Source: an uncultured Solimonas sp.
GTDB taxonomy: Bacteria > Pseudomonadota > Gammaproteobacteria > Nevskiales > Nevskiaceae
Length of the DNA: 21,018 nucleotides
Reading direction: 5' to 3'
Assembly: GCA_946478985.1 (NCBI GenBank)
Contig: CAMLDZ010000053.1
Span: 1-21,018, forward strand
Part shown: positions 1 to 21,018 of the stretch, in pieces
How positions within the stretch are numbered: position 1 is the first letter of the stretch
Layout: every line of letters begins with the position of its first letter
Notes under the pieces: generated by a model
The model's input: only the letters and a program-made list of their open reading frames with translations
What the model was told of the DNA's origin: nothing
The model's database searches: none
Position numbers and translations under genes: made by a program

Positions 1-1743
1 TCAGGGCGCGGGCACGAAGTCCAGCAGGAACTGCCGGAATACCGCGGCGGCCAGCGCCGCGTCGTCCTCGCTCAGGGTTTCTTCGGGGTTGTGGCTGACA
101 CCGCCGGCGCCGCAGCGGACGAACAGCATGCCGACCTCGGTCAGGTGCGCCAGCATCATCGCGTCGTGGCCGGCGCCGCTGGGCAGATGGCGGACCTCGC
201 CGCTGCCGGTGACTTTGCGCACGGCAGCGGCGAGCCCGTGCTGCAGCCGCGGTGCGCAGGGCGTGGCGTCGGCGTGGACGATCTGCTCGTGCCACAGCTG
301 CACGCCGCGGCGCGCGGCGATCACCGCCGCTTCGGCGAGCACGTCGGCGACGGCAGCGTCGCGCAGCGCATCGTCCGGCGCGCGGATGTCGAGCGTGAAC
401 TCGCAGCGCCCCGGCACCACGTTGACGGCGCCGTTGGGGACATCGAGCCTGCCGACGGTGCCGACCAGGCCCGGCGCGCCGCTGCAGCGGCGCTCGACCG
501 CCAGCACGATCTCGGCGGCGGCGGCGGCGGCGTCGCGGCGCAGGTGCATCGGCACCGTGCCGGCGTGGCCGGCGCGGCCGTCGACGCGCAGGCGGAAGCG
601 GCGGCTGCCGGCGATGGCGCTGACCACGCCCAGCGGCAGATCCTCGTCGAGCAGCACCGGACCCTGCTCGATGTGCACCTCGACATAGCCGAGCGTGCGC
701 GCCGGATCGCGCGCCAGCGCGGCGATGTCCCGCGGATCATGGCCCGCCGCGCGCAGCGCGGCCTCCAGCGTGACGCCGTCGGCGTCCTGGCGCTGCAGCA
801 GGGCCGGGTCGAAACGGCCGGCGACGGCGCTGCTGCCGAGGAAGGTCGAGCGGAAGCGCACGCCCTCCTCCTCGCTGAAGGCGATGATCTCCAGATCGAA
901 CGGCAGGCGCAGGCCCTGCCGGCGCAGCTGCTGGACGACGACGATCGGCAGCAGGATGCCGAGGCGGCCGTCGTAGCGGCCGGCGTCGATCACGGTGTCG
1001 TAGTGCGAGCCGGTGATCAGCGTGCCGGCCTGCGGATCGCTGCCCGGCCAGCGGCCGACGACGTTGCCGACCGCGTCGATGGTGGCGTCGAACCCGGCCT
1101 GCAGCATCCAGTCGCGCAGGCGCCGCGCGGCGGCCTGGTGTGCCGCGCTCAGATAGGTGCAGCTCAGCGCCGGCGGCGTCTCGGTGTACTGCGCGAGCGC
1201 GTCGGCCATCGCCAGGATCTCGCGGCCCGGCGGCTCGGCGCAGCGGTCGGCGAGGCGGAAGTCGGCGATGCGCGCGATCTCGGCCAGCGCGGTGGCGCGC
1301 TCGGCATCGGCGTCGTGGCCGAGGCGGCGGCGCATCTCGGCGACGATGTCGTCGCGCTGGCGCCCCTTCACCGAGATGACGAACGGAAAGCCGAACTTGT
1401 CGCGATAGGCGGCGTTGAGCGCCTGCAGTTCGCTGACCGCGCCCGGTGCCGCGCCGGTCAGGCCGGCGCCGGCCTGTTCGGCGGTGGAGTCGACGGTCAG
1501 CTCGCCGCGCTGCGCGGCGGCGCCGGCCAGCTCCGGGTGCGCACGGATCAATGCCAGCTGCTGCGCCGGCGGCGCTTCGAACATCGTCGCGCAGAGCGCT
1601 TCGAGCAGGGTGAAGCGGCAGGCGAACGGCCGCCGCGCCGCCGTCTGTTCGGCGATCCATGGCGAGTGCTCGAAGATGCCGTCGAGCGCGGCGGCGAAGT
1701 CCGCCACCGTTGCCGCATTCAACGCGCTGAGATCCAGGGGCAT
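1..1743 (-). CDS. uraD-allC: Bifunctional OHCU decarboxylase / allantoate amidohydrolase fusion
   Basis: This 580-residue protein carries two purine-pathway enzymes. Residues 1-165 match OHCU decarboxylase (UraD), which converts OHCU to (S)-allantoin: a FEHSPWIAE start, the HPEL motif with catalytic His69, Ser86 and Glu89, and the FGFPFVISVKGR motif ending in Arg128. Residues from about 170 to 580 match M20-family allantoate amidohydrolase, a cytoplasmic metal-dependent enzyme: GSHYDTV (His247), the YDG aspartate (Asp258), FSEEEGVRF (about 289-297), HIEQG, and a C-terminal SHNPEE motif. All key residues in both halves look intact. The ATG at 1743 lies 6 bases after the puuE stop. It is the last gene of the operon in view; the TGA occupies bases 1-3, so any terminator lies outside. 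The two activities flank the PuuE step (allantoin to allantoate), so the fusion joins non-consecutive reactions. Family assignment is confident; a regioselective M20 amidase on a related ureide is a minor alternative. Confidence 0.93.
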   Translation of the reverse strand: MPLDLSALNAATVADFAAALDGIFEHSPWIAEQTAARRPFACRFTLLEALCATMFEAPPAQQLALIRAHPELAGAAAQRGELTVDSTAEQAGAGLTGAAPGAVSELQALNAAYRDKFGFPFVISVKGRQRDDIVAEMRRRLGHDADAERATALAEIARIADFRLADRCAEPPGREILAMADALAQYTETPPALSCTYLSAAHQAAARRLRDWMLQAGFDATIDAVGNVVGRWPGSDPQAGTLITGSHYDTVIDAGRYDGRLGILLPIVVVQQLRRQGLRLPFDLEIIAFSEEEGVRFRSTFLGSSAVAGRFDPALLQRQDADGVTLEAALRAAGHDPRDIAALARDPARTLGYVEVHIEQGPVLLDEDLPLGVVSAIAGSRRFRLRVDGRAGHAGTVPMHLRRDAAAAAAEIVLAVERRCSGAPGLVGTVGRLDVPNGAVNVVPGRCEFTLDIRAPDDALRDAAVADVLAEAAVIAARRGVQLWHEQIVHADATPCAPRLQHGLAAAVRKVTGSGEVRHLPSGAGHDAMMLAHLTEVGMLFVRCGAGGVSHNPEETLSEDDAALAAAVFRQFLLDFVPAP

Positions 1744-3445: not shown

Positions 3446-4774
3446 TCATCCGCTCCTGACGGCGGTCAGGTCCTGCTCGCGGCCCTGCACCCAGCTGCCG
3501 CGGACTGTCGCGGTGTCGCCGAGCGTCATCAGCACCAGCAGTTTTTCCGCGAGCGTGGCGCAGGCGTCGAGCCGGCGCGACAGCAGCGGCGTCGCACGCA
3601 GATCCAGGACGATGAAGTCGGCCTCCCGCCCCGGCAGGAACGAGCCGATGCGATCTTCTAGGTCGAGGATCCGTGCGCCGCCGAGCGTCGCGAGGTAGAA
3701 CGCCCGCAGCGGCGTCAGGCGCTGCCCGCGGAGTTGCGCGACCTTATACGCTTCGCCGAGCGTGCGCAGCATGCTGAAGCTGGTGCCGCCGCCGACGTCG
3801 GTGGCGACGCCGTAGCGCAGGCCGCACAGATCGCTGGCGTCGAAGTCGAACAGGCCGCTGCCCAGATACAGGTTGGAGCTCGGCGCATGCGCCGCGCAGG
3901 CGCCGCAGGCCGCCATGCGGCTGCGCTCGCGCGCATCCAGGTGGATGCAGTGCGCGTAGATCGCCCGCTCGCGCAGCAGGCCGTGGCGGTCATAGACGTC
4001 GAGATAGCCGTCGGCATCCGGGAACAGCTGCGCCACCCAGTCGATCTCGCGCCGGTTCTCGGCCAGATGGCTGTGGATGTAGACGTCCGGGTAGTCGCGC
4101 GCCAGCCGTCCGGCCGCCTGCAGCTGCGCCGGCGTCGAGGTCGGCGCGAAGCGCGGCGTGATCGCATAGGCGAGCCGGTCCCGGCCGTGCCAGCGCTCGA
4201 TCAGCGCGCGCGAATCGCGCTCGCCGGTTTCGGCGCTGTCGCGCAGGTCCTCGGGGCAGTTGCGGTCCATCAGCACCTTGCCGGCGATCATCCGCAGGCC
4301 GCGTCGCTGCGCGGCATCGAAGAAGGCCTCGACCGAGGCGGCGTGCACGGTGCAGAACACCAGCGCGGTGGTGGTGCCGTTGCGCAGCAGCTCGTCGAGG
4401 AAGAACTCGGCGGTCTGCAGCGCGTAGTCGAAGTCACCGAAGCGGCGCTCGAACGCGAAGACGTAGCGCTGCAGCCATTCCAGCAGATCGCGGCCGGCCG
4501 AGCCGATCACGTCGGTCTGCGGAAAATGGATATGCGTGTCGATGAAGCCCGGCAGCAGCAGCGCATCGCGATGCTCGCGCAGCGCCACGTCGGCGCCGAG
4601 CTGCGGCAGCAGCTGCGCGGCGGCGCCGGCCGCCTCGACGCGGCCGTCGCGGATCAGCAGCAGGCCGTCGTCGTGATAGACGCAGTGGCCGGCGGCCAGC
4701 GCGGCGTCCGCCTCGGCCGCGCCCGGATCGGCGGTGAAGTACAGCAGCGCGCCGCGGTGTGCCTGCAGGCTCAT
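3446..4774 (-). CDS. guaD: Guanine deaminase
   Basis: GuaD is a zinc-dependent amidohydrolase that converts guanine to xanthine and ammonia, feeding the xanthine dehydrogenase in the same operon. The 442-residue protein shows the family pattern: GFIDTHIHFPQTD with metal ligands His81 and His83, the NGTTTALVF segment, HSHLAEN, a YAHCIHLD motif, and TDVGGGTSFSML with the metal-binding aspartate. The C-terminal part includes LGGARILDLEDRIGSFLPGR, typical of amidohydrolases (quoted in part). The ATG at 4774 overlaps the puuD TGA as ATGA and is preceded by GGGAG 7 bases away. The gene ends in an ATGA overlap with an alternative start of the GntR gene. The open frame continues far upstream through the puuD region, but that extension is an out-of-frame shadow and not part of GuaD. 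Confidence 0.95.
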   Translation of the reverse strand: MSLQAHRGALLYFTADPGAAEADAALAAGHCVYHDDGLLLIRDGRVEAAGAAAQLLPQLGADVALREHRDALLLPGFIDTHIHFPQTDVIGSAGRDLLEWLQRYVFAFERRFGDFDYALQTAEFFLDELLRNGTTTALVFCTVHAASVEAFFDAAQRRGLRMIAGKVLMDRNCPEDLRDSAETGERDSRALIERWHGRDRLAYAITPRFAPTSTPAQLQAAGRLARDYPDVYIHSHLAENRREIDWVAQLFPDADGYLDVYDRHGLLRERAIYAHCIHLDARERSRMAACGACAAHAPSSNLYLGSGLFDFDASDLCGLRYGVATDVGGGTSFSMLRTLGEAYKVAQLRGQRLTPLRAFYLATLGGARILDLEDRIGSFLPGREADFIVLDLRATPLLSRRLDACATLAEKLLVLMTLGDTATVRGSWVQGREQDLTAVRSG

Positions 4775-5985
4775 CGCGGCGCTCCCTGATCGATCCAGTC
4801 GAGCAGCTGCTGGCGCTCGTCGGCGCTCATGCCGGTGACATTGCCCAGCGGCATGGTGCCGGCGGCCAGCTGCGCGCGCAGCAGCGGCGCCTGGCGCTGC
4901 AGCAGCGCGTCGTCGTCGAGGCGCAGGCCCAGCGGCGGCGCGGCGAAGCCCGGAAAGCTCGGCCGGGCGGCGTGGCAGCCGACGCAGCGCTGCTCGACGA
5001 TCTGCCGCACCGTCGCGAACGGCACCGCACTGGCCGCCGCCGGTGCGGCGGTGCCGGCGACCGGCAGCGGCCGCACCAGCAGCAGCACGCCGAGCAGCAG
5101 CACCGCCGCCAGCAGCAGCGGCCAGACCGGCGTGCGGCCCCCGCGCTCGTGTGCCTTGTGCCGCGCGACGAACCAGGCGCGCACCGCAGCACCGGCGGCG
5201 GCGATGCCGATCAGCGCCAGCGCGCGCTGCTCGGCGCCGTACAGCAGCGCGTAGTGGTTGCTGATCATCGCCAGCAGCACCGGCAGCGTGAAATAGGTGT
5301 TGTGCAGCGAGCGCTGCTTGCCGCGCAGGCCGTCGCGCGGCTCCGGGGCGCGGCCCTCGCGCATCGCCGCCACCGCGCGGCGCTGGCCGGGAATGATCAC
5401 GAAGAAGACGTTGGCGACCATGATCGTGCCGAGCAGCGCGCCGAAGTGCAGGTAGGCGCCGCGGCCGCTGAACACCGCGCACAGGCCCCAGGCGGCGGCG
5501 GCGACCAGCAGTCCGATCGCCAGCGCCAGCAGGCGCGGCCGCGCGGCGAGCGGCGAGCGGCACAGGCCGTCGTAGACCAGCCAGCCGCCGAGCAGCGCGC
5601 CGGCGCCGAGCGCCACCGCCTGCCAAGCGGCCAGCGGCAGCACCGCCGGATCGATCAGGTAGCGCTGCGGCGCCAGCCAGTACAGCAGCGCCAGCAGCGC
5701 GATGCCGCTGAGGAAGGTGCTGTACGCCTCCCAGTAGAACCAGTGCAGCGTCGCCGGCAGCTGCGGCGGCGCCAGCTGGTATTTCTGCGCGTGGTAGAAG
5801 CCGCCGCCGTGCACCGCCCACAGCTCGCCGGCGACGCCGCGCGCGGCGTGCTGCGGATCGGCCGGCTTGAGCAGGTGGTTGTCGAGCCAGACGAAGTAGA
5901 AAGAGGCGCCGATCCAGGCGATGCCGACGACCAGATGCGTCCAGCGCAGCAGCAGGCTCAGCCAGTCGAGCAGATAGGCTTCCAT
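4771..5985 (-). CDS. puuD: Membrane urate oxidase with cytochrome c domain (PuuD)
   Basis: PuuD oxidises urate to 5-hydroxyisourate and passes electrons to its own cytochrome c domain, and presumably on to the respiratory chain, rather than making hydrogen peroxide like soluble uricase. The 404-residue protein has an N-terminal integral-membrane region (DUF989 type; several hydrophobic helices between residues 8 and 305, with conserved HWFYWEAYSTF near 81-91 and the NVFFVIIPGQRR segment near 192-203). A C-terminal cytochrome c domain has the haem motif CVGCH (Cys334, Cys337, His338) and a candidate axial methionine at Met378 in TMPLGN. The ATG at 5985 is 3 bases after the preceding permease stop, with GGGAAG 7 bases upstream. 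UraH and UraD, which act on its product, are in the same operon. Confidence 0.94.
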   Translation of the reverse strand: MEAYLLDWLSLLLRWTHLVVGIAWIGASFYFVWLDNHLLKPADPQHAARGVAGELWAVHGGGFYHAQKYQLAPPQLPATLHWFYWEAYSTFLSGIALLALLYWLAPQRYLIDPAVLPLAAWQAVALGAGALLGGWLVYDGLCRSPLAARPRLLALAIGLLVAAAAWGLCAVFSGRGAYLHFGALLGTIMVANVFFVIIPGQRRAVAAMREGRAPEPRDGLRGKQRSLHNTYFTLPVLLAMISNHYALLYGAEQRALALIGIAAAGAAVRAWFVARHKAHERGGRTPVWPLLLAAVLLLGVLLLVRPLPVAGTAAPAAASAVPFATVRQIVEQRCVGCHAARPSFPGFAAPPLGLRLDDDALLQRQAPLLRAQLAAGTMPLGNVTGMSADERQQLLDWIDQGAPR

Positions 5986-14410: not shown

Positions 14411-14770
14411 TCAGCTCCCGCGGTAGGTGGAGTAGCTCCACGGCGACAGCAGCAGGGGCACGTGATAGTGCGCGCCCGCATCGGCGATGCCGAAGCGCAG
14501 CAGCACGATGTCGAGAAACGGCGGTTCCGGCAGCTGCAGCCCGCAGCCACGGAAGTAATCCGCTGCCGCGAATTCGAGTTCGTAGACGGCGACCGTCAAC
14601 GCCGCCCCTTCCAGCAGCGGCGCGTCGGTCCTTCCCGTCGTATTTGTATGCAATTGCGCGAGCAGTTCGCGCGTGGCGCCGCAGCGGAACAAACGCAGTG
14701 CCAGACCCGCAGCCGGCATGCCTTGCGCGGTGTCGAGCACGTGGGTGGTGAGCTTTCCCGGCTTGGTCAT
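14411..14770 (-). CDS. uraH: 5-hydroxyisourate hydrolase
   Basis: UraH, a transthyretin-related protein, hydrolyses 5-hydroxyisourate (the PuuD product) to OHCU, the substrate of the UraD domain at 1-1743. The 119-residue protein shows the family signature: [12 protein letters not shown] with His10, GRTD with Arg47, [10 protein letters not shown] with His101/His103, and the diagnostic C-terminus YRGS. The ATG at 14770 gives the usual family length and no signal peptide; only a weak ribosome-binding sequence (GGCGGAA) precedes it. It is the first gene of the minus-strand operon. Codons 39-47 (CAA, TTG, CAT, ACA, AAT, then GGA, AGG) are unusually AT-rich or rare for this genome and coincide with a candidate operator on 14643-14654. 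Confidence 0.95.
14643..14654. promoter_or_regulatory. Candidate operator A, inside uraH
   Basis: TTTGTATGCAAT matches the palindrome ATTGCATGCAAT at 10 of 12 positions. It lies within uraH codons 40-44, in a run of codons atypical for this genome, about 120 bases downstream of the start. Binding there could act as a roadblock or a looping site. The binding protein is inferred to be the GntR/FCD regulator at 2682. Confidence 0.4.
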
Positions 14771-15543: not shown

Positions 15544-15586
15544 TAAAGAACAAGCGTTTCTCATATCTTGATCGGGAGTGGTGACC

Positions 15587-18163
15587 ATGAAGCAGGCCCT
15601 CAAACCAGCGGCTCCGAAGTGGAAGATGCGCGCCATCAGCATGATGGTCATCAGCGGCGGCTGCCTGTGCCAGCCCGCCTTGGCGCAGGAGGCCGAGGCG
15701 GAAGCCGCGGTCGAGGCACCCGCCGAGGCGGATGCCAGCGCGGCCCCTGAAGCCGCCGAGGAGACGGAGGTTTCGCAAGCGTCGGCCGAAGCCGTCCCGC
15801 AGGAGATCGCCGGCAGTGACGACGGCATCGACGAGGTGATCATCGAGTCGACGGTGAACCAGGAGTCGAATCTCATCCCCAGCGGCCGCAACGAATCGGT
15901 GTTCGGCTTCGGCAAGTCGATCGAGGAAACGCCGCGCTCGCTGACCTCGATCAGCAACGAGATGCTGACCAAGTTCAACATCGTCGAGCTCGACGACATC
16001 GTCTCGCTGACGCCCGGCGCGTTCACGCAATCGTTCTTCGGTGTGGCGGGCTCGCTCGATGTACGCGGCACGCCCGGCGAGAACTACTTCCGCGGCGTCA
16101 AGCGCATCGACAACCCGGGCAACTACCCGACGCCGATCGGCGCATCGGACCGCATCGACATCGTCCGCGGCCCGGCCTCGCCGATCTACGGCCCTTCGAA
16201 GATCGGCGGCTATCTGAACTTCGTGCCCAAGTCGGCGCGCGCGCAGGACGGCGCTTTCCTCAAGAAGCCCACCGGCGAAGTCGGCGTGACGCGCGGCAGC
16301 TGGGACAAGGACGTGATCCACGGCGAGGTCGGTGGCCCCGGCAAGCTGCTCGGCAAGGATTTCGGCTACTACTTCTACGCCGAGACCGAGGACTCCGGCT
16401 CGTACTACGAGAACAGTGCGACCGACCAGAGCATCTACCAGGCCTCGTTCGACGTGCAGCTGAGCGAAAAGTCGCGGATGGAGTTCGGCGGCATGTACCA
16501 CGAGTTCGAGGGCAACCAGGTGGCCGGCTGGAACCGCCTGTCGCAGGAGCTGATCGACGACGGCACCTACGTCACCGGCAGCCCGCGCTCGCTGGACACC
16601 AATGGCGACGGCTTCTTCTCGGCCAGCGAGGCCGCCAACGCGCCGCAGGGCGACGGCCTGGGCGTGTTCTTCTTCGGCGGCGTCGGCTCGTACAGCGCCG
16701 CCGACGTGCTCGCCGAGCTGGAGAAGCGTCCGGACATGGCGCTGCTCAATCCGGGCAAGACCCACATCAAGACCAGCCAGGTGCTGGTCAGCCAGGAGGA
16801 CGAGCTGACCGACGAGGTGATCACGCTGTACTTCGATTACTTCCATGATCTGGGCAACGATTTCACGCTGACCAACAAGTCGTTCTACGAATCGCTCGAC
16901 AACAACAACGAGAACGCCTACGGCTTCTCGCAGTTCGCCGATACCTGGGTGTTCGAGGACCAGCTGATTCTCGCCTGGAGCGGCGAGCACGGCAGCGTCG
17001 TCAAGGCGGCCTACCAGCTCAGCCCGTCGATCCGTCATCAGAACTTCGAGCACGGCGACAACTTCGCGTTCGAGTACTTCGACCGCCGCGACATCACCGG
17101 GCCGAGCACGCCGATCGACCGCCGCACGCTGTCGACCCGCGACGGCCACGCGGTGGAGCCGTTCTCCAGCCACCACAAGGGCACCTACACCGACATCGGC
17201 CTGGCCTTCCTCGGCGACTGGACCTTCTTCGACTCGCTGCACCTGCTCGGCGGCCTGCGCAACGACTGGATCGACATCGACTCGACCTGCGTCGAAGGCG
17301 GCGACTGCACCAGTGCCGGCACCAAGTTCACCGACAAGGACGATGCGTTGTCGTGGACGGTGAGCCTGAGCTACGACATCCCGGTGATCGGCGTGACGCC
17401 GTACGTGACCCGCGCCAAGCAGACGACGATGATCATCGGCCAGGGCGGCGAAGTGCCGGCCGACAACGTCGCCGACGGCAACGCGGTGGCCGATTCCAAG
17501 CTGACCGAGTTCGGCGCCAAGGGCAGCTTCTGGAACAAGCGCATCTACACCTCGGTGGCGCGCTTCAAGCAGGAACGCGTCGACTACAGCTCGCAGAACA
17601 CCGTCACCAACAACACCACCGAGGCCAAGGGCTGGGAAGCCGAGCTGCGCGCGCTGCTGACCGACAACATCGCCCTGGCCGGCACCTTCAGCCAGATCGA
17701 GGTCGTCAACCTGACGGCGCGCGAGAACGGCTTCCAGTTCGGCTTCGCCGGCGCCGATGACCTGCCGGCCGGTGTCGATCCCTCGCTGATCTACGGCGGT
17801 GTCGTCAACGGCCTGACCTTCACCACCGACGGCCGCAAGCAGGGCATCCCGGAACACATCTGGAGCCTCTACCTGATCTACAGCTTCAGCGAAGCGGTGA
17901 TCAAGGGCCTGACCGCGACGGTCGGCGTGACCAGTGTCGACTCGACGTACTCGGGCTTCTCCAAGGCGGTCAAGCTGCCCTCGTACACGCTGCTCAATGC
18001 CGGCTTCAACTACGAGACCGACTCGTGGAAGTTCGGCCTGCAGGGCCGCAACCTGACCAACGAGCGCTACTTCCGCTCGAACTTCCCGGACCTGTTCGGC
18101 TCCTCGGTGGTGCTGCCTGAAGTGCCGCGCAACTGGACGATGTCGATGGCCTACAAGTTCTGA
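15587..18163 (+). CDS. TonB-dependent outer-membrane receptor
   Basis: This 858-residue protein is an energised outer-membrane transporter. A Sec signal peptide with a likely cleavage in PALA-QEA after residue 33 is followed by an Ala/Glu-rich stretch (34-73), a candidate TonB box around DEVIIEST (82-89), a plug domain (about 110-216, with ETPRSLTSIS, VRGTPGENYFRGVKR and DRIDIVRGPASPIYGPS), and a beta-barrel ending in the terminal phenylalanine of MSMAYKF. Residues 337-348 (DTNGDGFFSASE) match an EF-hand calcium loop in a probable extracellular loop. I chose the ATG at 15587, with GGGAG 8 bases upstream, over the GTG at 15578. The plug resembles siderophore receptors, but the divergent purine operon and the downstream nucleoside and nucleobase permease genes suggest import of a purine compound; this is inference, and a siderophore substrate is possible. 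Confidence 0.93.
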   Translation: MKQALKPAAPKWKMRAISMMVISGGCLCQPALAQEAEAEAAVEAPAEADASAAPEAAEETEVSQASAEAVPQEIAGSDDGIDEVIIESTVNQESNLIPSGRNESVFGFGKSIEETPRSLTSISNEMLTKFNIVELDDIVSLTPGAFTQSFFGVAGSLDVRGTPGENYFRGVKRIDNPGNYPTPIGASDRIDIVRGPASPIYGPSKIGGYLNFVPKSARAQDGAFLKKPTGEVGVTRGSWDKDVIHGEVGGPGKLLGKDFGYYFYAETEDSGSYYENSATDQSIYQASFDVQLSEKSRMEFGGMYHEFEGNQVAGWNRLSQELIDDGTYVTGSPRSLDTNGDGFFSASEAANAPQGDGLGVFFFGGVGSYSAADVLAELEKRPDMALLNPGKTHIKTSQVLVSQEDELTDEVITLYFDYFHDLGNDFTLTNKSFYESLDNNNENAYGFSQFADTWVFEDQLILAWSGEHGSVVKAAYQLSPSIRHQNFEHGDNFAFEYFDRRDITGPSTPIDRRTLSTRDGHAVEPFSSHHKGTYTDIGLAFLGDWTFFDSLHLLGGLRNDWIDIDSTCVEGGDCTSAGTKFTDKDDALSWTVSLSYDIPVIGVTPYVTRAKQTTMIIGQGGEVPADNVADGNAVADSKLTEFGAKGSFWNKRIYTSVARFKQERVDYSSQNTVTNNTTEAKGWEAELRALLTDNIALAGTFSQIEVVNLTARENGFQFGFAGADDLPAGVDPSLIYGGVVNGLTFTTDGRKQGIPEHIWSLYLIYSFSEAVIKGLTATVGVTSVDSTYSGFSKAVKLPSYTLLNAGFNYETDSWKFGLQGRNLTNERYFRSNFPDLFGSSVVLPEVPRNWTMSMAYKF

Positions 18164-18188
18164 GGCTCCGCCCCCGCTCTCCGCCCCT

Positions 18189-18251
18189 GGTCCGCACACC
18201 GGGCGGCTGCCCGCCCGCAGCCACCCCCACCCGGTGTGTCGGACCATTTTT
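18189..18251 (+). terminator. Terminator-like long hairpin between the TonB receptor and NUP genes
   Basis: GGTCCGCACACCGGG (18189-18203) pairs with CCCGGTGTGTCGGACC (18230-18245), leaving a single bulged base. Inside, GGCTGC (18205-18210) pairs with GCAGCC (18217-18222) around a 6-base loop. A run of five T follows at 18247-18251. This is an intrinsic-terminator arrangement 26 bases after the receptor stop. It ends only 12 bases before the next gene's ATG, so it may be a partial terminator or attenuator. Confidence 0.7.
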
Positions 18252-18263
18252 CAGTACCGGACG

Positions 18264-19406
18264 ATGAAATCATTTTTCCTGCTGGACCCGGCCCGCAGCC
18301 GCGGCGCACTGCTGACCGCCGGTTTCGCCGCCGTCGTCGCGCTGACCGCCTGCGCCAGTGCGCCCACCCCGCCCGCGGCTGTCGTTGCCGCACCGGCACC
18401 GGTCGAGATCGCCAGGCCCATCGAGGTCAAGGTCGTGGTCGTGACGATGTTCGAGATCGGCCAGGACAGCGGCGACCTGCCCGGCGAGTTCCAGCTCTGG
18501 CACGAGCGCCAGAAGCTGACGCAGCGCTACGCCTTCCCGCATCACCATGATCTGTGGTTCAACCAGCAGACCGGCGTGCTCGGCATGGTCACCGGCATGG
18601 GCACCGCCAATTCCGCCTCGGCGGTGATGGCGCTGGGCCTGGACCCGCGCTTCGACCTGCGCAGGGCCTACTGGCTGGTCGCCGGCATCGCCGGCTTCGA
18701 TCCCAACGATGCCTCGATCGGCTCCGCCGCCTGGGCCGAGTACCTCGTCGACGCCGATCTCGCGCACGAGATCGACGCGCGCGAAATTCCCAAGGGCTGG
18801 AAGACCGGCTACTTCCCGCGCCGCGCCAAGAAGCCCTACGAGCAGCCGCGCCCGGAATCCGACGGCGAAGTGTTCCGGCTCAACCCGCAGCTGACCGAAT
18901 GGGCGTTCCAGCTGACCCGCGACACGCCGCTCGAAGACAGCGCACCGCTGCAGCGGCGCCGCGCGATGTTCAAGGGCTATCCGAACGCGCAGAAACCGCC
19001 GTTCGTGCTCAAGGGCGACCAGCTCGCCGGCATGACCTACTGGCACGGCAAGCTGCTCAACGACTGGGCCAACGACTGGGTCAAGTACTGGAGCGACGGC
19101 CACGGCGAGTTCGTCTCCTCGGCGATGGAGGACACCGGCAGCTACCAGTCGCTGAGCTATCTGCACGCGGCCGGCAAGGTCGACAAGAACCGCGTGATGG
19201 TGCTGCGCACCGCCAGCAACTACAGCATGCAGCCGCCCGGCGTCAGTGCCGCCGCCAGCCTGGCGATGGATCACGAGGGCTACGCCGGCCTGATCGCCTC
19301 GGTCGAGGCGGCCTACCGCGTCGGCTCGCGCGTGGTCGACGAGATCGCCGGCCACTGGGCGACGTATCGCGAGCAGATCCCGGGCGCGCCGGTTCCGGCG
19401 CCGTGA
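18264..19406 (+). CDS. Purine nucleoside permease (NUP family) lipoprotein
   Basis: This 380-residue protein resembles the NUP family (named for a Candida purine nucleoside permease). It has no multiple membrane helices and looks like a soluble nucleoside-binding or phosphorylase-like fold, so the family name may misstate its activity. Visible features are a lipoprotein signal peptide with lipobox LTAC (Cys30, followed by Ala, which favours the outer membrane), the core motif GMGTANSASAVMALG, then WLVAGIAGFDPNDASIGSAA, a GEFVSSAMEDTGSYQSL segment and the C-terminal RTASNYSMQPPG. The ATG at 18264 gives a good signal peptide but has a weak ribosome-binding site; a GTG at 18234 inside the hairpin is less likely. 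The next gene starts inside its stop codon (GTGA), so the two are probably translationally coupled. A periplasmic role in capturing or cleaving nucleosides is inferred. Confidence 0.87.
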   Translation: MKSFFLLDPARSRGALLTAGFAAVVALTACASAPTPPAAVVAAPAPVEIARPIEVKVVVVTMFEIGQDSGDLPGEFQLWHERQKLTQRYAFPHHHDLWFNQQTGVLGMVTGMGTANSASAVMALGLDPRFDLRRAYWLVAGIAGFDPNDASIGSAAWAEYLVDADLAHEIDAREIPKGWKTGYFPRRAKKPYEQPRPESDGEVFRLNPQLTEWAFQLTRDTPLEDSAPLQRRRAMFKGYPNAQKPPFVLKGDQLAGMTYWHGKLLNDWANDWVKYWSDGHGEFVSSAMEDTGSYQSLSYLHAAGKVDKNRVMVLRTASNYSMQPPGVSAAASLAMDHEGYAGLIASVEAAYRVGSRVVDEIAGHWATYREQIPGAPVPAP

Positions 19407-21018
19407 AGGCCGGCGCTGCGGCACCGGCCGTCGCCGTCCATCCGGTCGACGCGGTCCTGCCGCTGCCGCAGCTGTTCACCTACGGCGTCCAGCACGTGCT
19501 GGCGTTCTACGCCGGCGCGGTGCTGATCCCGATCATCCTCGCCGGCGCCCTCGGGCTCAGCCACGAGCAGCTGATCCATCTGATCAACGCCGACCTGTTC
19601 ACCTGCGGCATCGCCTCGATCCTGCAGGCCTGGGGCATCGGCAAGATCGGCGTGCGCCTGCCGCTGCTGCAGGGTGTGACCTTCACCGCGGTCAGTCCGA
19701 TGATCGCCATCGGCCTGGCCGCCGGCGGCGGCGTGCCGGGCCTGCTGCAGATCTACGGCAGCGTCATCGTCGCCGGCCTGTGCACCTTCTTCGCCGCGCC
19801 GTACTTCGCGCGGCTGCTGCGCTTCTTTCCGCCGGTGGTGACCGGCACGGTGATCCTGATCATCGGCATCGCGCTGCTGCCGGTGGCGGCCAGCGATGTC
19901 GTCAACGGCGTCGGCCCGCAGCGCATGCAGGAGCCGGTGGAACTGAAGAACGTGCTCTATGCGCTGGCCACGCTCGGCCTGATCGTGGCGATCCAGCGCT
20001 TCTTCCGCGGCTTCATCTCCACCATCGCCGTGCTGCTGGGCCTGGCCTGCGGCACGCTGCTGGCGTGGGCCTGCGGCGACGCCCACTTCGACGAGGTGCT
20101 GGCGGCGCCGCTGTTCGGCTACACGCAGCCGTTCCACTTCGGCATGCCCAGCTTCAACCTGTTCGCGATCGCCTCGATGCTGATCGTCATGCTGATCACC
20201 ATGATCGAGACCACCGGCGACGTCTACGCCACCGGCGAGATCGTGCAGAAGCGCATCCGCGGCGACGACATCGCCCGCGCGATCCGCGCCGACGGTGCCG
20301 CGACCTTCCTCGGCGGCATCCTCAACTCGTTTCCGTACACCTGCTTCGCCGAGAACGTCGGCCTGGTGCGGCTGACACAGGTCAAGAGCCGCTGGGTCGT
20401 GGTCGCCGCCGGCGTGGTGATGCTGGTGCTCGGCTCGCTGCCGAAGGCGGCGGCGGTGGTCGCCTGCATCCCACACCCGGTGCTGGGCGGCGCGGCGCTG
20501 GCGATGTTCGCGGCGGTGGCGGTGGTCGGCATCCAGACGCTGGCCAAGGTCGATTTCAACGATCACCGCAATATCGTCATCGTCGGCACCAGCCTCGGCC
20601 TGGGCATGCTGGCCACCGCCCAGCCGCATCTGGCCGCAGCGTTTCCGGGCTGGGCGCAGATCGCCTTCGGCAGCGGCATCACGCTGGCGGCGATCACCGC
20701 GATCGCCCTCAACCTGCTGTTCAATCATCTCGGCCGCGGCATGTTCAGCCCCGCGGTCGCCGTCGCCGGCCGGCCCGGCGAGCTGATTGGCCTGGATACC
20801 GTCAACGCCATGGACTTCGCGCGCTTCGAGCAGACCTTCGGCGGCCTGGTCGAGAACACGCCGTGGGTGCTCGAACGCGCCTGGGCGATGCGCCCGTTCG
20901 CCGACACCCTGGCGCTGCGCGCGGCGTTCCAGAACGCACTGATCACCGGCAGCGCCGACGAGCAGCTGCAGCTGATGAACTCGTTCGCCGATCTGGGCAG
21001 CGAGGGCGACGCGCACAA
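19403..21018 (+). CDS. NCS2 nucleobase permease with C-terminal OHCU-decarboxylase-like extension (partial)
   Basis: The frame opens with a GTG at 19403 overlapping the NUP stop (GTGA) and stays open for 538 codons to the window edge, so the C-terminus is missing. Residues 1 to about 465 are an NCS2 (uracil/xanthine/urate) proton symporter: YGVQHVLAFYAG near residue 30, IETTGDVYATG with the conserved Glu269, and NSFPYTCFAENVG (308-320) with Glu317-Asn318. From residue 470 the sequence MDFARFEQTFGG, ENTPWVLERAW, RPFADTLALRAAF, DEQLQLMNSFADLGS aligns by eye with the first 75 residues of UraD-type decarboxylases, including the one at 1-1743, but Phe stands where the catalytic His of the HPEL motif should be. 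Transport of xanthine, urate or uracil across the inner membrane is likely; the function of the extension is unknown. Confidence 0.9.
   Translation, partial: MKAGAAAPAVAVHPVDAVLPLPQLFTYGVQHVLAFYAGAVLIPIILAGALGLSHEQLIHLINADLFTCGIASILQAWGIGKIGVRLPLLQGVTFTAVSPMIAIGLAAGGGVPGLLQIYGSVIVAGLCTFFAAPYFARLLRFFPPVVTGTVILIIGIALLPVAASDVVNGVGPQRMQEPVELKNVLYALATLGLIVAIQRFFRGFISTIAVLLGLACGTLLAWACGDAHFDEVLAAPLFGYTQPFHFGMPSFNLFAIASMLIVMLITMIETTGDVYATGEIVQKRIRGDDIARAIRADGAATFLGGILNSFPYTCFAENVGLVRLTQVKSRWVVVAAGVVMLVLGSLPKAAAVVACIPHPVLGGAALAMFAAVAVVGIQTLAKVDFNDHRNIVIVGTSLGLGMLATAQPHLAAAFPGWAQIAFGSGITLAAITAIALNLLFNHLGRGMFSPAVAVAGRPGELIGLDTVNAMDFARFEQTFGGLVENTPWVLERAWAMRPFADTLALRAAFQNALITGSADEQLQLMNSFADLGSEGDAH

Follow-up and report, generated by a model that had tools for sequence, protein, structure and literature searches.

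The permeases of the NCS2/NAT/SLC23 family (pbuX/TIGR03173; UapA and UraA among them) share a transporter fold superfamily with the SLC26 carriers, in which a cytoplasmic STAS domain follows the last membrane helix, as outlined in PMC6497670. A parallel in gene order is offered by Rubrobacter xylanophilus, where a permease gene and then a gene for OHCU (2-oxo-4-hydroxy-4-carboxy-5-ureidoimidazoline) decarboxylase are neighbors; the accessible text of PMC4016543 describes two separate proteins and mentions no fused pseudo-domain. Here we analyze a stretch of 21,018 nucleotides from an uncultured Solimonas sp. (contig CAMLDZ010000053.1, positions 1 to 21,018 of the forward strand; hereinafter the window), at the end of which the same order of the two parts is found within a single gene: a xanthine/urate-type NCS2 permease that, unlike the family members just named, adds to the transporter a folded C-terminal enzyme-like domain of the UraD (OHCU decarboxylase; PF09349) family. 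In contrast to the SLC26 carriers, the tail is a UraD rather than a STAS domain, and any regulatory likeness between the two would be one of analogy. Judging from its active-site letters, the tail is a pseudoenzyme carried on a transporter and, because the catalytic His has been lost in all relatives examined and yet the domain is kept by selection, it probably regulates or organizes purine uptake.

The features of the window that bear directly on this protein are as follows.

19403..21016, plus strand: NCS2 (SLC23) permease with a C-terminal UraD-like domain, starting at GTG and running without a stop up to the window end
19481..20725, plus strand: membrane transporter domain (TIGR03173 pbuX, 502 bits against a cut-off of 414; PF00860)
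20735..20782, plus strand: linker from the last membrane helix to the UraD-like domain (residues 445-460 of the full-length copy P0002; predicted local distance difference test score, pLDDT, about 42-50, low confidence)
20783..21016, plus strand: N-terminal half of the UraD-like domain (PF09349 match at 20804-21004)
20984..20989, plus strand: Phe528-Ala529 replacing the catalytic His-Pro (Phe528 codon 20984-20986, Ala529 codon 20987-20989)
1..1743, minus strand: intact UraD (His-Pro, S..EQ) joined to an allantoate amidohydrolase-like enzyme; this is the catalytic counterpart at the locus

The transporter part is assigned to NCS2/SLC23 by a profile score above the curated cut-off together with a full-length transporter fold; within the truncated permease PF00860 covers residues 23-408 (E 8.8e-105, 351 bits). 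The initial annotation, made from the letters of the window alone, had the permease continuing into UraD-like sequence and raised the concern that a frameshift or an assembly error might have joined two genes. The continuation is borne out by a PF09349 match to residues 468-534 of the truncated protein (profile positions 1-66 of 155, E 1.4e-11, 45.6 bits against a cut-off of 24) and by P0002, a near-identical full-length copy of 641 amino acids that is a single uninterrupted protein. The profile search that had been suggested for the extended C terminus gives, in P0002, a match to the complete PF09349 profile over residues 468-621 (E 7e-30, 105 bits), and PF00860 and PF09349 are its only domains at E <= 0.01, with no STAS among them. 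The window permease differs from P0002 in 6 of 538 residues, the start residue included, and this comparison places the stop and about 103 more residues beyond the window. A structural comparison with UraD, likewise suggested at the outset, points in the same direction: a domain-only model of the Nevskia orthologue (L001) has a pLDDT of 84, and its significant structural matches are exclusively to the UraD family. Profile and fold together place the tail in the UraD superfamily and exclude a chance similarity, and the poorly predicted linker is perhaps flexible. A frameshift or misassembly as the source of the fusion is very unlikely given P0002 and the identical open frame in orthologues from Nevskia, Pseudacidovorax, Variovorax, Labrys and Solimonas records. 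Moreover, full-length frames ending in a stop were found in 78 of the 80 fusion loci, the exceptions being L077, which runs off its contig, and L053, where the frame apparently changes about 60 residues before the end, through a frame shift or a sequencing error. Among the 81 matches of the search for relatives, 79 have both Pfam domains precomputed and P0082 reveals PF09349 on scanning; the remaining match, P0073 (334 amino acids, on a 1.8-kb contig), has a different first domain, the sigma-54 activator domain PF00158, followed by PF09349, and is perhaps a further UraD fusion or a chimera.

We take His67, Ser84, Glu87 and Arg161 of the zebrafish enzyme (2o70) to be the active-site and pocket residues of UraD; His67 is essential, and His67 mutants are inactive. 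In the numbering of the window UraD the first three correspond to His69, Ser86 and Glu89, and the pocket Arg161 corresponds to Arg619 of P0002. With this enzyme the permease tail has in common the fold, Arg161, Arg138 and Glu146; it differs in His67 (Phe or Tyr), Glu87 (Asp) and, in the window type, Ser84 (Tyr), as well as in its tether to the permease. Where the window UraD reads LALIRAHPELAG, the permease tail reads LQLMNSFADLGS, which confirms the exchange of His for Phe and of Pro for Ala on which the initial annotation had rested; the Asp at position 87 of P0002 lies beyond the window, as does Arg161. How often the His is lost in NCS2 proteins with this extension, a question posed with that annotation, can be answered from an alignment of 145 full-length fusions, comprising 79 of 80 loci retained from 169 that encode a relative (L053 was excluded) and 66 database proteins, the two sources overlapping in part and yielding 140 distinct domain sequences. 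At position 67, 80 of these have Phe and 65 have Tyr, and none has His. Position 87 is occupied by Asp (140 fusions), Glu (4) or Ala (1) and position 84 by Tyr (82), Ser (62) or Thr (1), and Arg161 is retained in 144, with a gap in the remaining one. Tyr67 pairs with Ser84 or Thr84 in 63 fusions and Phe67 with Tyr84 in 80, both positions are Tyr in 2 (from Solimonas), and the combination of Phe67 with Ser84 is absent from all 145.

The UraDs of the same loci and genomes that are not attached to a permease have His-Pro in 62 of 62 cases (55 distinct domain sequences; five fused copies cut by locus ends, at first sorted as stand-alone, are excluded). In a MAFFT alignment of 54 of them His67, Pro68, Glu87 and Gln88 are present in all 54 and Ser84 in 51, while a profile alignment gave other letters at the Ser, Glu and Gln columns for about one third of the non-permease UraDs. 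Searching from an actinobacterial member, we found no His in the permease-adjacent domain among the best 120 of 304 matches, and Tyr is present in every one of the 11 fusions that a phylum sample yielded in ten further actinobacterial genomes (L111-L120 and L125; PF00860 confirmed with Pfam in five, the rest judged by frame length and kinship). Hence no C-terminal permease fusion with an intact His was seen among those 120 matches or among the fusions read from the phylum sample, in which 32 genomes matched and letters were read in 14 and in the centre genome (the 14 being 10 with fusions and those contributing the His-Pro UraDs of G187, G272, G111 and G253); such a fusion may exist somewhere. 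We left the 648-residue His-Pro open reading frames of L111-L113 out of the permease fusions, a scan of the one from L111 having given a UraD match alone. These counts indicate that the loss of His is a fixed trait of the family and not decay in one genome.

The fused family apparently has a single origin. All 81 C-terminal fused domains group together in a tree built from 145 UraD domains (support 100/99), as do, with the same support, the 35 fused domains (ten from the eleven further fusions) among the 81 rows of a second tree. Eight catalytic UraDs from the phylum sample come closest to the fused clade and share a node with it (96/88); four of them adjoin such a permease, one lies about 2 kb off, two are fused to uricase and one stands alone. 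Both trees are midpoint-rooted and do not fix how these eight and the fused clade branch relative to one another. The proteobacterial fused domains, the window type included, are nested within the actinobacterial ones. The fused domain is not a recent duplicate of the UraD encoded in the same genome, since that of the window falls into a different clade. The simplest account of these trees would be that a neighboring uraD was duplicated and fused, that its His was lost early, and that the fusion spread in Actinobacteria and was then transferred to Proteobacteria. The fuller scenario, in which the uraD beside the permease came by this route to gate an SLC23 transporter in response to a metabolite, is one to which we would give rather less than an even chance. 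Two members labeled Pseudonocardiales or Pseudonocardia (L012 and P0081) are of the FADLG type, which is otherwise proteobacterial, and could mark a donor lineage or a binning error; L012 has an adjoining uraD of actinobacterial type. The family is uncommon across the sampled phyla: the fusion occurs in at least 11 of 296 actinobacterial genomes, counting the centre genome, and in the sample of 398 Pseudomonadota genomes a score above 200 bits was reached only in the centre genome, both tallies being lower bounds with at most 11 (actinobacterial) or 8 (Pseudomonadota) candidates scored per genome. Within nine genera (31 loci) the ratio of nonsynonymous to synonymous substitution rates (dN/dS) is 0.09-0.25 in the UraD-like domain as against 0.03-0.15 in the permease part; the former values point to purifying selection on the fused domain.

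With respect to the pathway in which such a protein would operate, each of the 35 genomes that we chose from the 80 fusion loci contains a second PF09349 match, with His-Pro in all 32 whose letters were read. Urate oxidase is likewise present in 35 of 35, as uricase in 21 and as PuuD (PF06181, for which 15 genomes were searched) in the other 14, and UraH in 34. The domain is C-terminal, it has kept the pocket Arg, and the whole pathway is present; these points suggest a cytosolic regulator, and we tentatively propose, with close to an even chance of being right, that the tail is a built-in sensor of a pathway metabolite. On this proposal the UraD-like domain would lie on the cytosolic side, and its relict pocket, with Arg kept, His turned into Tyr or Phe and Glu into Asp, would hold OHCU, allantoin or a look-alike, that is, an intermediate or product of urate oxidation, without decarboxylating it. 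Binding of the ligand might then alter the activity of the transporter, much as the STAS domain matters in SLC26 carriers, and purine uptake would thereby be matched to the flux through uricase or PuuD, UraH and the separate catalytic UraD.

The main competitor, in our estimation a less likely one, is that the dead domain pairs with a catalytic UraD or with other uricolytic enzymes and tethers them at the membrane near the incoming substrate; UraD is itself a dimer. Eight proteins among the best 120 of the 304 actinobacterial matches (P0207, P0210, P0211, P0215, P0217, P0238, P0240, from Nakamurella multipartita DSM 44233, and P0267) are single polypeptides made up of the permease, the pseudo-UraD and an additional, intact UraD (HPSEQR). 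Furthermore, in 9 of the 35 genomes less than 200 bp separate the fused domain from a second UraD (UraDs on different contigs give no distance, and for G026, which possibly has two fusions, one was used), and a second UraD stands directly beside the fusion in L114, L116, L117, L118 and L125; the nearest relatives of the fused clade include four such direct neighbors. The letters ANP follow the UraD fold in 76 of 80 fusions (in P0002 as ANPI, residues 627-630, beyond the window) and in 0 of 62 non-permease UraDs, and possibly constitute a docking peptide, but they are missing from 10 of the 11 further fusions. What speaks more generally against docking is that the catalytic UraDs of most sampled genomes belong to other, distant clades that differ from genome to genome, with frame lengths of 163 to 957 amino acids and hence probably different fusion partners (the allantoate amidohydrolase of the window being the one that was scanned), so that the matching interface would have had to evolve anew time and again. 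Under these circumstances it is easier to keep a shared ligand than a dedicated protein partner and, because the clade of the catalytic UraD varies whereas the metabolites and the remodeled pocket stay constant, we somewhat favor metabolite sensing over docking. A purely structural module that serves dimerization or stability of the permease and binds no small molecule would agree with the conserved fold core, with the dimeric state of UraD and with that of SLC23 permeases (the latter according to PMC6497670); it would leave the retained pocket Arg and the constrained, clade-specific pocket letters unexplained, and we consider it improbable.

We find it harder still to believe that the domain is catalytic, whether as before or in a new way, with Tyr and Asp in place of His and Glu acting on OHCU or a related compound. 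Arg161 is retained, L115 is without the His only, and two Tyr-type members exceed the cut-off of the NCBI UraD equivalog TIGR03164 (112.6 and 127.7 against 96.25) though they lack the catalytic His; yet the window type, at 77 bits for P0002, stays below that cut-off, His-Pro is invariant among the non-permease UraDs, and every fusion genome examined has a second UraD match at its disposal. That the domain is a leftover of gene fusion with no current role is barely conceivable: it does evolve faster than the permease part, but its dN/dS values and the stop-terminated frames in nearly all loci argue otherwise. UraD and an NCS2 permease were joined on two or more occasions, and only the C-terminal kind of the two seen lost the His: P0132 and P0144 (614 amino acids), found among the best 120 of 2914 matches to the intact UraD of the window, have the reverse order, with an N-terminal UraD that lies on a separate branch of the tree, retains His-Pro and S..EQ and is apparently catalytic, followed by the permease.

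Several observations weigh against a dead, metabolite-sensing domain and should be set beside the evidence in its favor. The tandem proteins and the adjoining uraD genes fit docking equally well. In L115, a deep fusion, only the His is gone, and Ser84, Glu87, Gln88 and Arg161 are present, which fits a loss of His before the remaining site changed, and Glu87 is retained in the four fusions noted above. The exchange between Tyr67/Ser84 and Phe67/Tyr84 seems to amount to approximately one clade split and hence not to repeated evidence. The dN/dS of the domain exceeds that of the permease part by a factor of about 1.1 to 3.8, and the presumed lack of decarboxylase activity is read from sequence.

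If metabolite sensing by the tail is correct, a transporter would use a dead copy of a pathway enzyme to monitor the pathway downstream, and this conserved transporter pseudoenzyme is in any case a concrete, testable candidate regulator of urate and xanthine uptake. There is also a practical side, in that public databases list many such permeases as OHCU decarboxylase although these lack the catalytic His; genomes could thus be credited with UraD activity on the basis of a transporter. The domain combination is already visible in databases, in precomputed Pfam pairs and in record names. Our full-text literature searches, with most subscription journals outside their coverage, gave no description of the permease and pseudo-UraD architecture among the titles and opening abstract lines of the matches listed. 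OHCU does not appear in the accessible part of an NCS2 survey (PMC6308229), and other papers deal with PuuD (PMC4562309), the plant transthyretin-like protein (TTL; PMC2834698) and transporter tails (PMC6597760).

The rest of the window provides further context, with these genes around the permease.

4771..5985, minus strand: PuuD-like membrane urate oxidase, identified by inspection of its sequence
14411..14770, minus strand: UraH-like 5-hydroxyisourate hydrolase, assigned by eye from sequence
15578..18163, plus strand: TonB-dependent receptor-like open reading frame, named from sequence, upstream of the NUP and permease genes
18234..19406, plus strand: NUP family protein (PF06516), overlapping the permease start by 4 bases (GTGA)

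Homologues of the xanthine dehydrogenase subunits of the window occur in the fetched neighborhood of 57-58 of the 80 fusions and those of its guanine deaminase near 42 (tblastn, E <= 1e-25), and UraH relatives are near the permease in 3 loci. Immediately 5' of the permease, the TonB-dependent receptor-like and NUP genes together occupy 15578-19406, and the 4-base overlap makes it probable that NUP and permease are co-translated. Of the 80 loci, three (L001-L003) have a NUP relative immediately upstream of the permease and two (L014 and L015) have one at a distance of about 0.9 kb on that side, and a relative of the TonB-dependent receptor lies upstream in 2 of 80. Relatives of both genes are present in L001 (Nevskia) and L014 (Solimonas), and it is possible that receptor, NUP protein and permease form a unit for the uptake of purine nucleosides from the outer to the inner membrane.
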